From Natrinema halophilum (GTDB taxonomy: Archaea > Halobacteriota > Halobacteria > Halobacteriales > Natrialbaceae), in the NCBI RefSeq assembly GCF_013402815.2, contig NZ_CP058601.1, positions 4,092,001 to 4,156,000 on the forward strand: DNA of 64,000 nucleotides. Reading direction: 5' to 3'. Positions 30,144-37,918 of the stretch are shown one piece after another. How positions within the stretch are numbered: position 1 is the stretch's first letter; every line of letters starts with the position of its first letter. Below the pieces are notes generated by a model. That model made no database searches, had not been told where the DNA came from, and saw nothing but the letters and a program-made list of their open reading frames with translations. A program made the position numbers and the translations under genes.

Positions 30144-30809
30144 TTACTCTGGCGCTCCCTCGAGGATCGCCACGCCGCTCGAGGCACCGATCCGGTCGGC
30201 ACCGGCCTCGAGCATGGCCATCGCGTCGTCGTAGCTGCTGATCCCGCCGCTTGCCTTGACGGGAAGATACTCGCTCATAAGGTCGACGTCGTCGACGGTT
30301 GCGCCACCGTTCCCACGGCGTTTCTGCGGCGCACCGCTCCCTGCGAATCCGGTCGACGTCTTCACCATCGCCGCGTCAGCCGCCACCGCGGCTTCACAGG
30401 CCCGGCGCTTTTCTGCGTCGGTCAGCAGTGCGGTCTCGATGATCACCTTCACCGGGATCGGAACCGCTGCAACCAGTTCCGCGATTTCGGCCCTGACGGT
30501 GTCGTCCTCGCCCGCGTGCAGGCGGCCGACATTGATTACCACGTCGAGTTCGTCAGCGCCGGCCTGCCAGGCCGTGACTCCCTCGCGGCGCTTTATTTCG
30601 TGGCTATGTTGGCCGTGTGGAAAGCCGACGACAGTCGCGAGAGTAACGTCGGGCGCGTACTCTGCCGCCTCCTCGACGGCGTACGGCGGAATGCAGGCGT
30701 TCATTCCGTGTTCCGTTGCCGCCTCGAGGACGTTCCTGACGTCGGCGGGAGTCGTCTCGGGGCCAAGGGCGGTATGGTCGATCAGGGGAGCGAGTTCGCT
30801 GCGGTTCAT
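30144..30809 (-). CDS. deoC: Deoxyribose-phosphate aldolase
   Basis: 221 residues. It cleaves 2-deoxyribose-5-phosphate to acetaldehyde and glyceraldehyde-3-phosphate in deoxynucleoside breakdown. Family marks: [12 protein letters not shown], the [14 protein letters not shown] stretch, [10 protein letters not shown], the Schiff-base lysine in [10 protein letters not shown], and the late lysine in [12 protein letters not shown]. The length is standard. A 14-bp palindrome and a five-copy 29-bp repeat lie directly upstream. Other nucleoside-sugar genes follow at 33-38 kb, so the region has a catabolic theme. Confidence 0.95.
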
Positions 30810-30834: not shown

Positions 30835-30985
30835 AAAAAGCCGCCCGATCATCGCGTCGACCGGAGAAGCCGCCCGTTCGTCGCGTCGACCGGAGAAGCC
30901 GCCCGTTCGTCGCATCGACCGGAGAAGCCGCCCGTTCGTCGCGTCGACCGGAGAAGCCGCCCGATCGTCGCGTCGGCTGGCATCG
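30835..30985. repeat. 29-bp tandem repeat, about five copies, upstream of deoC
   Basis: CCGCCCG occurs at 30841, 30870, 30899, 30928 and 30957, exactly 29 bases apart, in a unit of the form CCGCCCGTTCGTCGCGTCGA plus CCGGAGAAG. Copies differ at one to three bases. The unit length is not a multiple of three and there is no convincing ORF, so it is non-coding. The remainder of the gap (30986-31266) shows no gene. Confidence 0.85.
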
Positions 30986-32191: not shown

Positions 32192-32317
32192 GGGATCGTT
32201 TCGAAGGGACCTGGGATCGTTTCGAAGGGACCTGGGATCGTTTCGAAGGGACCTGGGATCGTTTCGAAGGGGCCTGGGATCGTTGCGAAGGGGCCTGGGA
32301 TCGGACCGAGTAGGGGA
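32192..32317. repeat. 21-bp tandem repeat, six copies
   Basis: GGGATCGTTTCGAAGGGACCT and variants start at 32192, 32213, 32234, 32255, 32276 and 32297, exactly 21 bases apart. Early copies are nearly identical and the last two drift. Because 21 is a multiple of three, it creates an artificial 7-residue repeat in open frames on both strands, but the surrounding frames lack coding character. The 31933-32519 gap contains no gene I can support. Confidence 0.88.
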
Positions 32318-33186: not shown

Positions 33187-34272
33187 ATGGCCGATGCCGA
33201 ACCCAGCGTCGTCCCGGCCGTCGAATCCACCGCCGACGACATCGCGGCGATGCGGATTCGCGGGGCGGCGACGATCGCCGACGCTGCGGCGGCGGCACTG
33301 GCGACCCAGGCCGATCAGTCCGAGGCTGAGAACGCACCAGCATTCCGGCGCCAACTTCGTGCCGCCGCCAGAACGCTTTACGAGACCCGGCCAACTGCGG
33401 TCAGCCTCCCGAACGCTCTTCGGTACGTCCTGCGGGGAATGGACGGCGATACGGTCGCCGACCTCCGGTCGACGACGATCGCCAGCGCGGAGTCGTTCCA
33501 GCGCAATCTCGCACAGGCTCAGGACAAACTCGGCGACGTCGGCGCAAACCGCCTGCGAGACGGCGACACCGTCATGACTCACTGCCATTCGACGGACGCC
33601 CTCGCGTGCGTCGAAGCGGCGCTCGAAAGCGGCAAGCATCTCGAGGCGATCGTCAAGGAGACCCGCCCCCGGAAGCAAGGCCATATCACGGCGCGGCAGT
33701 TGCGCCAGTGGGGAGTACCGGTGACGCTAATCGTGGACAACGCGGCGCGGCGATATCTGGACGACGCCGATCACGTCCTGGTCGGGGCCGACAGCATCGC
33801 GGCGGACGGCAGCGTGATCAACAAAATCGGGACGAGTGGATTGGCAGTCAACGCCCGCGAGCGGGGCGTTCCCGTGATGGTCGCGGCTCAAACGATCAAA
33901 CTCCATCCGGATACGTTGACGGGCCACAGCGTCGAGATCGAGATGCGCGACGAAACGGAGATACTCACGGACGTCGAGCGCGGCGCGATCACCGGCAACG
34001 ACCACGACCGAGCGGAAGAGAGACGTGAAGATGAGAGGCCACCGGAGACGATTACAGCCGAGGACGGCGAAACCGACGTGCGATCCCCCGAGACAGACGC
34101 TGCCTTCGAGACCGGCACCGAGCTAGCCGTCGAAAATCCCGCCTTCGACGTCACGCCGCCGCGGTACGTCGACGCGATCGTGACCGAACACGGACAGTTT
34201 CCGCCCGAAAGCATCGTGACACTCATGCGGGAATTGTTTGGCGAGATGATCGACGAACCATGGGAGGCCTGA
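33187..34272 (+). CDS. Ribose-1,5-bisphosphate isomerase (eIF2B-alpha-like)
   Basis: 361 residues. The family shares the eIF2B/MtnA fold. Visible marks: AAMRIRGAATIADAAAAAL, the catalytic cysteine in THCHSTDA, ETRPRKQGHITARQL, the catalytic aspartate in GADSIAADG, and NKIGTSGLAVNARE. In Thermococcus kodakarensis the corresponding Cys and Asp are the catalytic pair. It converts ribose-1,5-bisphosphate to ribulose-1,5-bisphosphate. An acidic insertion (about 276-320) is a halophile feature. A PfkB kinase and a nucleoside phosphorylase gene lie within 4 kb on the same strand and would supply its substrate. A generic translation-factor label would be misleading. Confidence 0.88.
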   Translation: MADAEPSVVPAVESTADDIAAMRIRGAATIADAAAAALATQADQSEAENAPAFRRQLRAAARTLYETRPTAVSLPNALRYVLRGMDGDTVADLRSTTIASAESFQRNLAQAQDKLGDVGANRLRDGDTVMTHCHSTDALACVEAALESGKHLEAIVKETRPRKQGHITARQLRQWGVPVTLIVDNAARRYLDDADHVLVGADSIAADGSVINKIGTSGLAVNARERGVPVMVAAQTIKLHPDTLTGHSVEIEMRDETEILTDVERGAITGNDHDRAEERREDERPPETITAEDGETDVRSPETDAAFETGTELAVENPAFDVTPPRYVDAIVTEHGQFPPESIVTLMRELFGEMIDEPWEA

Positions 34273-34422
34273 CAGAACCGAAAGTGGAGAACGGCCAAAA
34301 CCTGCCAGAAATTTGACTGGCGGTCCGTACCGTCTCCGCTAACACACGACGAGAAAATAGATGAAAATTTGATTATTTCACCAACCGGAAAGTGTTAGTC
34401 ACTGGTGTGTGGTAGTACCCCT

Positions 34423-35244
34423 ATGGTATTACCCGAGGGGTTCGTCGTCCCGCCATGGTACCTGCTGGTTCCGGTCGTGGTGATTCTCGGGAGCGTCATT
34501 GCACTGTTGTGGGCGATCGAGCCGCCGGTGACGGATTTTACGGTTCTGGCGTTTGCACCGTGGATGATGTTCGGCTCGAGCCTCCATGTTCTGTACAAAT
34601 TGGACGCGTTTCCGGAGAGTATCGCTCCTCTGTTTAGCGCCCCGATGGTATACGCAGTGACGGCGATCGTGGCGGGAATCGTCTGGGTCATCGCGGTCTT
34701 TCTCCACGTCGGGGGACTCCAGCCCACGGTTCACCGATTCGTCGGGATCACGGGGACGGCATTTTTCAGCGTCTTCTCGATGTTCGCCATCTTTCGCAGT
34801 GTCGAGATGGGGACCTTCGAGCCGTTCTGGCCAGTCATCAGCGTCGTCGTCGCCGGTATCGTCACTGCCATCGCCTGGGTCGCCCTGAGTCTCTGGTTTA
34901 CTGACGTCGCCACGACGACGAGCGCAACCGGCGCACTCGTCGTCTTCGGACACGCATTGGACGGGGTCACGACCGCAATCGGCTACGACATCATCGGAGT
35001 CGGCGAGGACGTTCCACTCTCGCTGCTGATCCTCCAGACCAGCGAATCGCTGCCCTCCGCCGAGTACATCGGCGCCGGCTGGCTGTTCGTCCTCGTGAAG
35101 GTCGTTCTCGCGATGGTCATCCTCGGACTGTTCCGGGAGTACGTCGATGAACGACCACAGCAGGCACGGACGATCCTCGCGCTGGTCGCCGCGGTCGGCC
35201 TCGGGCCGGCCGTTCACAATACCTTGTTGTTCGCCGTCGCCTGA
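34423..35244 (+). CDS. DUF63 family membrane protein
   Basis: 273 residues from the ATG at 34423 (MVLPEGFVVPPWYLLVP). Eight or so hydrophobic helices are visible. The pattern TDFTVLAFAPWMMFGSSLHV near the start and a late FGHALDGVTTAIGYD match archaeal DUF63 integral membrane proteins. The role is unknown. The AT-rich sequence at 34365-34385 supplies a likely promoter. It separates the isomerase and kinase genes of the nucleoside pathway. Confidence 0.82.
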   Translation: MVLPEGFVVPPWYLLVPVVVILGSVIALLWAIEPPVTDFTVLAFAPWMMFGSSLHVLYKLDAFPESIAPLFSAPMVYAVTAIVAGIVWVIAVFLHVGGLQPTVHRFVGITGTAFFSVFSMFAIFRSVEMGTFEPFWPVISVVVAGIVTAIAWVALSLWFTDVATTTSATGALVVFGHALDGVTTAIGYDIIGVGEDVPLSLLILQTSESLPSAEYIGAGWLFVLVKVVLAMVILGLFREYVDERPQQARTILALVAAVGLGPAVHNTLLFAVA

Positions 35245-35328
35245 AGGTCGGCGAAGACGAACAATCGGCGCTGTAGCAGTTTTCGATTACGTATTGGCGA
35301 CAGAGACACTGCCCCACCAGAGCTGACA

Positions 35329-35358
35329 AAAATATATAATATGGCAGTTTATAATATA
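35329..35358 (+). promoter_or_regulatory. TATA-rich promoter
   Basis: AAAATATATAATATGG and TTTATAATATATAC form a strong AT-rich block directly before the ATG at 35365. The first element is near the distance expected for a TATA box of a leaderless transcript. Confidence 0.55.
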
Positions 35359-35364
35359 TACTAA

Positions 35365-35574
35365 ATGGCTGATTTTATACATTTGATACTGCTGATACTG
35401 GTCACAATCGGAATGGTCGGGATTCCGACGGTCGGAATGTACCGCGAAGCGAGCGAGCACAGTACTCGTCCGGACGAGTGGACGAGTGTGATGTTCGTTC
35501 TCTCGATCGCGTTTCCCGCAATCGGGCCGATTCTGCTCTGGATACTGTACACCGCCGTCCACACTCGCGGGTAG
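35365..35574 (+). CDS. Small two-helix membrane protein
   Basis: 69 residues with two hydrophobic helices (LILLILVTIGMVGIPTVGM and VMFVLSIAFPAIGPILLWIL) joined by a charged loop. It is preceded by a very strong TATA-like block, which supports a real, possibly well-expressed gene. No family is recognised. Confidence 0.65.
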   Translation: MADFIHLILLILVTIGMVGIPTVGMYREASEHSTRPDEWTSVMFVLSIAFPAIGPILLWILYTAVHTRG

Positions 35575-35759
35575 TTTTGTAGACGGCACCGATCAGTCGG
35601 CATCTCGGCGTCCCTGGTCGCTCAGCCGTCTCCGATGGGAGCAGCTCCTGCAGGAGTCGTTCGTCGGCTCCCCCGTACGTACCGGAACCGTCACGAGTCG
35701 ATCACCGTCGCTCGTCACTAGATTTTTGCCGGCCGACACCGTCCTCCCGGTATCGTCGA

Positions 35760-36638
35760 ATGGATTCGGTAACGGTACTCACCGCCGGCCACGTAAACTG
35801 GGACGTGACCCTTCGCGTCGACAGGCTCCCCGAAGCCGACGGTGAGGCGTCGATCCGCTCGCAGCGCCAGTCCGGTGGGGGCAGCGCAGCCAACGTTGCC
35901 TCTGCACTCGCTGGCCTCGGCGTCGAGACCGAACTGATCGGCAGCGTCGGCGATGACGACAACGGCCTGCTCGCACGCCGCGAACTCGAGGCGGCGGGCG
36001 TCTCCCTGGATGGCGTACGCGTCGTCGAGGGGGCCGACACGGCCGTCAAGTACCTGCTCGTCGACGAGAGGGGGGAAGTCGCGATACTCGGTAACGACGG
36101 CGTCAACGAGGCCATCACGCCGGATGACCTCGAGCCCGAACGTATCCGCGGGGCCGACCACGTCCACCTCACAGGACAGCGCCCAGACACCGCGGCTGCG
36201 ATTGCGCGAATCGCCACGGAGGACGGATTGTCGATCAGCTTCGATCCGGGTCGTCGACTCGCCGATCGGGATTTCGGCGGGGCTCTCGGACTCGCCGACG
36301 TCATTTTCGTCACCGATCGGGAAGCCACGGCGCTGCTCGGGGACGGCCGAGCCGACGAGACGGCCGAGGGTCAAATCGTGGTCGTCACCTGCGGGGCCGA
36401 CGGCGCGGAAGCGTACACGCCTGACGGTGCCGTCGTTCACCCGGGATTCGATATTAACCCGGTCGATACGGCCGGTGCGGGCGACGCGTTCGCCGCTGGA
36501 TTTCTCTCGACGTGGCTCGACAGTGGCGATATCGCCCATTCACTGGCGTACGGAAATGCCTGCGGTGCGCTCACAGCGAGCAGGAACGGCGCGCGGAGCG
36601 CACCGACGTTCGACGCGGTCGAGGACCTGCTCAGGTAG
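35760..36638 (+). CDS. PfkB-family sugar kinase, candidate ribose-1-phosphate kinase
   Basis: 292 residues. The N-terminal PfkB signature GGGSAANVASALAGLGVETE and the C-terminal DTAGAGDAFAAGFLS, with the catalytic aspartate, are both present. The early segment NWDVTLRVDRLPEADGE forms the sugar-binding lid region. The general family includes ribokinase, adenosine kinase and fructokinase. Its place between the ribose-1,5-bisphosphate isomerase and a nucleoside phosphorylase gene points to ATP-dependent phosphorylation of ribose-1-phosphate, the step known to link those two enzymes in haloarchaea. That substrate is inferred from context. Confidence 0.85.
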   Translation: MDSVTVLTAGHVNWDVTLRVDRLPEADGEASIRSQRQSGGGSAANVASALAGLGVETELIGSVGDDDNGLLARRELEAAGVSLDGVRVVEGADTAVKYLLVDERGEVAILGNDGVNEAITPDDLEPERIRGADHVHLTGQRPDTAAAIARIATEDGLSISFDPGRRLADRDFGGALGLADVIFVTDREATALLGDGRADETAEGQIVVVTCGADGAEAYTPDGAVVHPGFDINPVDTAGAGDAFAAGFLSTWLDSGDIAHSLAYGNACGALTASRNGARSAPTFDAVEDLLR

Positions 36639-36787
36639 CGATCGTGACCAGAACCTATTTATCGGTTAGTCAACGCCGATAGCGTATCGCAGTCGTGCGG
36701 TTCTCACCCCTTGCTGTCTGACGGTAGTTATATGGGATGGGCCGTTGCTCACTCAGATAGACAGTCACAGTATCGTGGCTGAGAGAC

Positions 36788-37090
36788 ATGACGGAAGGAA
36801 GGGTAAACCAGTCCAATGGATGTGGCTTCAGACGTCGCATCCAGTACGAACGACGTGCGGACGAACCGCCGAGTATCGCCGCTGCGATGGCGCTGGCTCA
36901 GTATTTCGGTGACGACGTTACCGCGGCCAGCACGCAGCTATACGACTACATCGATCCGGAGGCGCTCGACAGCCTCTTCGCGGAGACGAACCGCGGCGGG
37001 TCCCGAGCGAAAGGAACCGTCGAATTCGAAATAGAGAACGCGGTGGTCACGGTCCGACCCGGCCGCGTTGAAGTGCGTCCGAACGGATAG
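36788..37090 (+). CDS. HalOD1 output-domain protein
   Basis: 100 residues. The core EPPSIAAAMALAQYFGDDVT, then LYDYIDPEALDSLFAE and a beta-rich end (GTVEFEIENAVVTVRPGRVEV) match the HalOD1 domain, a small haloarchaeal output domain found alone or in signalling proteins. It lies just upstream of the nucleoside phosphorylase gene (99 bases), so it could modulate expression of that gene; this is inference. Confidence 0.85.
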   Translation: MTEGRVNQSNGCGFRRRIQYERRADEPPSIAAAMALAQYFGDDVTAASTQLYDYIDPEALDSLFAETNRGGSRAKGTVEFEIENAVVTVRPGRVEVRPNG

Positions 37091-37189
37091 TCGACGGTTG
37101 AACGCGGGGAACGGGGTGGCGTCGATATCGGCGATGCGCCTCGACCCTTCCTCGAACCTTTTTTCTCACCGCCCGCGGAACGCGACGGT

Positions 37190-37918
37190 ATGGCGACGCA
37201 GCCACACCTACTGGTAGACGACGGCGATCTGACGGATATCGCACTCATTCCGGGCGATCCGGGGCGGGTCGATCGCATCGCCGATCACTGTGACGAGTCG
37301 GAAACGATAGCGCGTAACCGCGAGTACAAGGTCGTCAACGCCACGTATGAGGGACGAGAATTGACGATTTGCTCGACCGGAATCGGCTGTCCATCGGCCG
37401 CCATCGCGATCGAAGAGATGGCAAACGTCGGCGTCGAGACGTTCGTCCGCGTCGGGACGACCGGCGCGCTCCAGTCGGAGATAGAAATCGGTGACATGAT
37501 CGTCGCGACCGGGGCCGCAAAGAACGAGGGGACGAGCAAACGGTACGAGGCCGTCGAGTATCCCGCCGTGCCGAACTACGACGTGCTGTCTGCGCTGGTC
37601 GACTCCGCACACGCAAACGACGAGGATGTCCACGTGGGGCCGATCGCCTCCGACGACGCCTATTACGCCGAGACCGACGCGGCCGTCGACGACTGGGAAG
37701 CCGCCGGTTTGCTGGCGGTCGAGATGGAGGCCGCCGCGGTCTTTACGCTCGCTCGCCGCAGAGGATTGCGTGCCGGTGCGATCTGTACCGTCGACGGAAA
37801 CCTCGTCGAAGGGACCCAGAAAGGGACCGACACCGAGGACGAGGAACTCCCGGACAAAGCCAAAAACAACGTCGGCCGAGCCATCGATATCGCTCTCGAG
37901 GCCGCGACGGGCTTGTAG
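37190..37918 (+). CDS. Nucleoside phosphorylase (uridine/purine phosphorylase family)
   Basis: 242 residues of the PNP/UDP family. Marks: ALIPGDPGRVDRIA (phosphate site), CSTGIGCPSAAIAIEE, FVRVGTTGALQ, and the ribose-binding VEMEAAAVFTLARR. The enzyme splits nucleosides with phosphate to base and ribose-1-phosphate. Automated tools would call it uridine phosphorylase. In the published haloarchaeal route the corresponding enzyme is a guanosine phosphorylase, so base specificity should be left open. It completes a phosphorylase-kinase-isomerase set with the genes at 35760 and 33187. Confidence 0.9.
   Translation: MATQPHLLVDDGDLTDIALIPGDPGRVDRIADHCDESETIARNREYKVVNATYEGRELTICSTGIGCPSAAIAIEEMANVGVETFVRVGTTGALQSEIEIGDMIVATGAAKNEGTSKRYEAVEYPAVPNYDVLSALVDSAHANDEDVHVGPIASDDAYYAETDAAVDDWEAAGLLAVEMEAAAVFTLARRRGLRAGAICTVDGNLVEGTQKGTDTEDEELPDKAKNNVGRAIDIALEAATGL

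Follow-up and report, generated by a model that had tools for sequence, protein, structure and literature searches.

Analysis of a window of 64,000 nucleotides from Natrinema halophilum (contig NZ_CP058601.1, positions 4,092,001 to 4,156,000) revealed a gene cluster that very probably encodes the upper half of a pentose bisphosphate pathway feeding Rubisco, which is variant (ii) of the haloarchaeal pathways, within a family that uses two alternative lower halves and a genus in which a HAD–fucA gene pair has probably entered one slot more than once while Rubisco decayed. Taken by itself, the cluster adds one more case of a pathway that was already described in 2022 (PMC9700705). The new part is the split of Natrinema into 14 and 11 genomes by lower half, together with the remnants and repeated switches that accompany it. 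What is useful here is therefore a correction, as this organism was found to have the Rubisco branch, and the pattern surrounding it. If this reading is true, carboxylating ribose catabolism has recently given way to the non-carboxylating form several times in Natrinema, and the genus offers natural replicates of that switch. As close strains differ in their lower half and the remnants are still readable, sister strains can be used to test why an archaeon abandons Rubisco, the candidate reasons being oxygen, CO2 supply, redox balance and ethylene glycol output.

Gene content and order of the cluster

An earlier note on this DNA had described a ribose-1,5-bisphosphate (R15P) isomerase, a PfkB kinase and a PNP/UDP-family phosphorylase on one strand, interleaved with a membrane protein gene and a HalOD1 gene, and all five were found in place (Table 1). 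The five genes are no chance grouping, because the order isomerase–DUF63–kinase–HalOD1–phosphorylase and the common strand were conserved in nearly all Natrialbaceae loci examined, in a sample of 80 loci from other species plus those of 25 Natrinema genomes. The arrangement differs in Halorubrum (HAD–fucA–isomerase–kinase), and in Halorientalis an isomerase–kinase pair adjoins Rubisco. The gap between the DUF63 and kinase genes (35245–35759) spans 515 bp, is lower in G+C (0.55) and exceeds that of most relatives; two loci, L161 (genome G055) and L004, hold several kilobases at this position.

Table 1. Genes of the cluster and the neighbouring deoC gene, in window coordinates
Feature	Position	Strand	Length	Family model
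deoC, deoxyribose-phosphate aldolase	30144–30809	-		TIGR00126 (189 bits > 117)
R15P isomerase	33187–34272	+	361 aa	TIGR00511
DUF63 polytopic membrane protein	34405–35244	+	279 aa	PF01889
PfkB kinase (ATP-dependent R1P kinase)	35760–36638	+		NF053626, PF00294
HalOD1-domain protein	36788–37090	+	100 aa	PF18545
Nucleoside phosphorylase, Urdpase1 (guanosine phosphorylase) type	37190–37918	+	242 aa	PF01048

The isomerase scored 444 bits against TIGR00511 (cut-off 314) and under the cut-offs of the MtnA equivalog models, and its best PDB matches were the Thermococcus R15P isomerase structures 5yfj and 3a11. The catalytic residues that had been picked out by motif, the Cys of THCHS (Cys133) and the Asp of GADSI (Asp202), both align with these structures. 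The possibility raised in the earlier note, that the protein is instead a true eIF2B or MtnA, is ruled out by the model scores, as the R15P isomerase equivalog model ranked above both. Conversion of R15P to ribulose-1,5-bisphosphate (RuBP) has been demonstrated for Htur_0571 (PMC9700705). Residues 265–313 (window 33979–34125) form an acidic low-complexity insert of ~49 residues, which is lineage-specific, being missing or shorter in most relatives and missing in the Thermococcus enzyme.

The PfkB kinase, which also matched PF00294, reached 459.5 bits against an equivalog cut-off of 330 for ATP-dependent ribose-1-phosphate (R1P) kinase. The phosphorylase shared 69% identity with the cluster phosphorylase of Halobacterium salinarum, compared to 44–46% with the second copy in its own genome, and on pairwise identity alone it appears to be the operon-type copy and not the second haloarchaeal copy. 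Guanosine preference has been demonstrated for Hlac_2318 only (PMC9700705). In the predicted upper half, a nucleoside, probably guanosine first, would be phosphorolysed to R1P, which the PfkB kinase would convert with ATP to R15P and the isomerase in turn to RuBP. This series of reactions, proposed in the earlier note, agrees with the work of Sato et al. 2022, who characterized orthologs of the phosphorylase, kinase and isomerase (PMC9700705). Both the isomerase and the kinase pass curated cut-offs, and the activities are assigned by orthology to the tested enzymes.

The interleaved genes had been suggested to include a nucleoside importer or a regulator. DUF63 was rejected as a pathway-specific gene: 283 of the phylum's 295 genomes have the family, which is therefore not specific to ribose catabolism. 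Most haloarchaea carry two copies, one of them often inside the isomerase cluster. The AF2 model of the protein was confident (pLDDT 89.8), and a Foldseek fold search with it gave no informative match (E >= 0.2); the best VIA match was a designed helical repeat (Z 6.9, 106 residues, rmsd 4.8). DUF63 may or may not be a nucleoside importer, as no fold match or other evidence points to that role. The open-access literature returned only unrelated DUF63x-type matches. The HalOD1 protein, which is kept in Natrialbaceae clusters, is a candidate regulator, although this is a guess.

The earlier note was silent on deoC, the usual neighbour of the isomerase gene. It is the divergent direct neighbour in most Natrialbaceae and in several other haloarchaea, and this conservation suggests that a deoxyribose arm is probably shared. 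No mention of deoC appears in the main text of Sato et al. 2022 (PMC9700705). Here the two genes are ~2.3 kb apart, with an HD-domain gene, a small membrane ORF and repeats between them. The repeats include two tandem arrays, one with a 29-bp unit in 4.8 copies (30838–30975) and one with a 21-bp unit in 5.3 copies (32192–32303), both with 95–97% matches.

The lower half of the pathway in this genome

Three haloarchaeal variants have been described (PMC9700705). The first combines Rubisco with an NMP phosphorylase, the second has Rubisco only, and the third lacks Rubisco and has a HAD RuBP phosphatase and a FucA ribulose-1-phosphate (Ru1P) aldolase instead. The earlier note had assigned the cluster to a Rubisco-free haloarchaeal pathway, which is the third of these variants. 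This assignment fails. The genome search that it proposed for lower-half genes recovered Rubisco, no Ru1P aldolase gene and no clear RuBP phosphatase ortholog. A single Rubisco large-subunit gene, encoding 416 aa, lies on the same 4.36-Mb contig as the cluster; its product scored 601 bits against the type III model TIGR03326 (cut-off 497) and has 16 of 16 checked active-site residues. Class II aldolase (PF00596) had zero matches in this 99.98% complete genome, while 12 of 14 control genomes were positive, and Halorubrum FucA as a query found no match in the genome; the Rubisco-free route would therefore lack its Ru1P aldolase step here. No clear ortholog of the HAD RuBP phosphatase was found in the genome, the best match having 40% identity over residues 69–204 (59 bits), and the slot that holds HAD–fucA in other Natrinema is empty.

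The best genome match to NMP phosphorylase (TIGR03327) scored just 35 bits, where the model's cut-off is 535. This candidate (C1:1313602-1314006) was rejected, as its score over 133 positions is far under the cut-off, and it is probably another glycosyltransferase of the same superfamily. The presence of Rubisco without NMP phosphorylase therefore places the system in variant (ii), and gene content rules out a Rubisco-free pathway in this genome. A non-carboxylating route could still be imagined to run here, with Rubisco used for something else, since the upper half would be identical. However, the lack of a class II aldolase and of a HAD ortholog, the empty slot and the intact Rubisco all argue against this, and we find it scarcely credible. 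In the Rubisco-fed pathway that we favour, the chromosomal type III enzyme would carboxylate RuBP to two 3-phosphoglycerates, with no dephosphorylation and splitting.

Gene content showed no difference from that of variant (ii) (PMC9700705, Fig. 5b), with a Urdpase1-type phosphorylase, an ATP-dependent R1P kinase, an R15P isomerase and a type III Rubisco, and with NMP phosphorylase absent; the lineage-specific acidic insert of the isomerase and the ~2.3 kb between deoC and the isomerase gene set the window apart. The non-carboxylating pentose bisphosphate pathway (Sato et al. 2022) shares the three upper enzymes and the operon type, but differs in its lower half, as the genome analysed here has Rubisco and lacks the genes for RuBP phosphatase and Ru1P aldolase. 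The Thermococcus pathway uses the same isomerase family (TK0185) and a type III Rubisco (TK2290). However, its R1P kinase is ADP-dependent (TK2029), whereas the kinase of the window belongs to the ATP-dependent haloarchaeal family, and NMP phosphorylase is missing here.

Two lower branches across the Natrialbaceae

The isomerase was present in 103 of 125 genomes of the family. Among these 103, 36 had Rubisco only, 59 had FucA only, seven had both and one, a 55% complete assembly, had neither; for Rubisco genomes outside Natrinema whose protein was not fetched, the ortholog call was by score alone. No genome in the family survey had a Rubisco ortholog or FucA without the isomerase, and HAD adjoined fucA in 20 of the 20 loci examined. 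A common upper half would thus lead either to Rubisco or to a HAD RuBP phosphatase and FucA Ru1P aldolase. The two branches are not incompatible, as six genomes of one genus (G001–G006) and G013 hold HAD–fucA beside an intact Rubisco (16/16 residues).

Another reading is that RuBP is consumed mainly by neither Rubisco nor the aldolase, with R15P or RuBP put to some other use or with an unrelated aldolase and phosphatase forming a cryptic branch. Sato et al. (PMC9700705) note that some haloarchaea carry the phosphorylase and the kinase in the absence of the isomerase, which implies other uses of R15P. However, 102 of the 103 isomerase genomes hold a known RuBP-consuming branch and the exception is the incomplete assembly, which makes this reading improbable compared to consumption by the two known branches.

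Several Natrialbaceae also encode divergent Rubisco-like proteins (L120, L143, L145, L146, L154 and L155), in most cases on a secondary contig; they share 28–37% identity with the chromosomal Rubisco, and the equivalents of Lys177 and Lys334 are replaced. On the basis of such identities and of replacement at Lys334 (and Lys177), the tally leaves out the Rubisco-like proteins of G007, G025, G027, G072 (second replicon), G094 and G114. FucA-like proteins of 41–50% identity (G007, G008, G018, G042, G048 and G068) were likewise not counted as Ru1P aldolase.

Slots, remnants and probable repeated switches in Natrinema

The dataset comprised 29 Natrinema genomes, of which 14 had an intact Rubisco without FucA, 11 had FucA without an intact Rubisco and four had neither. 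No genome combined the two branches among the 25 with the isomerase, and the HAD–fucA pair was confirmed in 10 of the 11 fucA genomes. Each branch has its own place within the genus. Rubisco lies between sucCD and bioB. In the 10 FucA genomes examined for the other slot (all but G065), HAD–fucA is flanked by thrS and a phosphoribosyltransferase gene, with only one of the two flanks inside the stretch in G061. At sucCD/bioB, a protein search found Rubisco fragments in six of the 11 genomes with FucA; the portions of the gene that are preserved differ between genomes and overlap in part. A DNA search added shorter traces in G066 and G078, both with FucA, and in G077, which has neither branch. 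No assembly is broken within the sucCD/bioB intervals, and they contain hardly any N (2 in one locus). We found no description of these Rubisco remnants in the open-access papers covered.

Two independent locus trees, of sucCD-bioB-bioU and of the isomerase cluster, each require five state changes, three of which are forced by strongly supported (starred) branches. The sister pairs G052/G072 and G068/G069 showed opposite states in both. As only three independent pairs sit on such branches, a sign test alone cannot reach significance (p 0.25), and shuffle tests correct for relatedness incompletely. The HAD–fucA tree separates G069 from G072. A grouping of these two, as expected from one gain in the clade that they share, is worse by 131 log units and is rejected. 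Forcing G066, G069 and G072 together costs 153 log units.

The main rival to HAD–fucA transfer, for the Natrinema pattern only, is random reciprocal loss from one ancient genome with both branches. It would account for each branch having one constant slot within the genus, and genus g2 shows that both branches can be held together. However, the thrS/phosphoribosyltransferase interval is empty in the 18 genomes without FucA and none has a clear HAD–fucA remnant, whereas Rubisco remnants are common, and the HAD–fucA tree conflicts strongly with the flank (host) tree. Reciprocal loss is consequently judged unlikely. The slots, the Rubisco remnants, the five switches and the conflict of the HAD–fucA tree indicate, at the level of sequence, that Rubisco has been repeatedly and recently replaced by the non-carboxylating branch in Natrinema. 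We infer the direction of this switch as HAD–fucA moving between lineages into the thrS/phosphoribosyltransferase slot, which would be followed by decay of Rubisco at sucCD/bioB. It is likely, then, that within this one genus a mobile RuBP phosphatase–aldolase module repeatedly replaces Rubisco at one fixed slot, with the upper pathway kept and Rubisco decaying in place to leave remnants.

The four genomes with neither branch (G059, G060, G076 and G077) also lack the isomerase. In G077 a faint trace of Rubisco persists, and Rubisco at least has therefore been lost in that genome.
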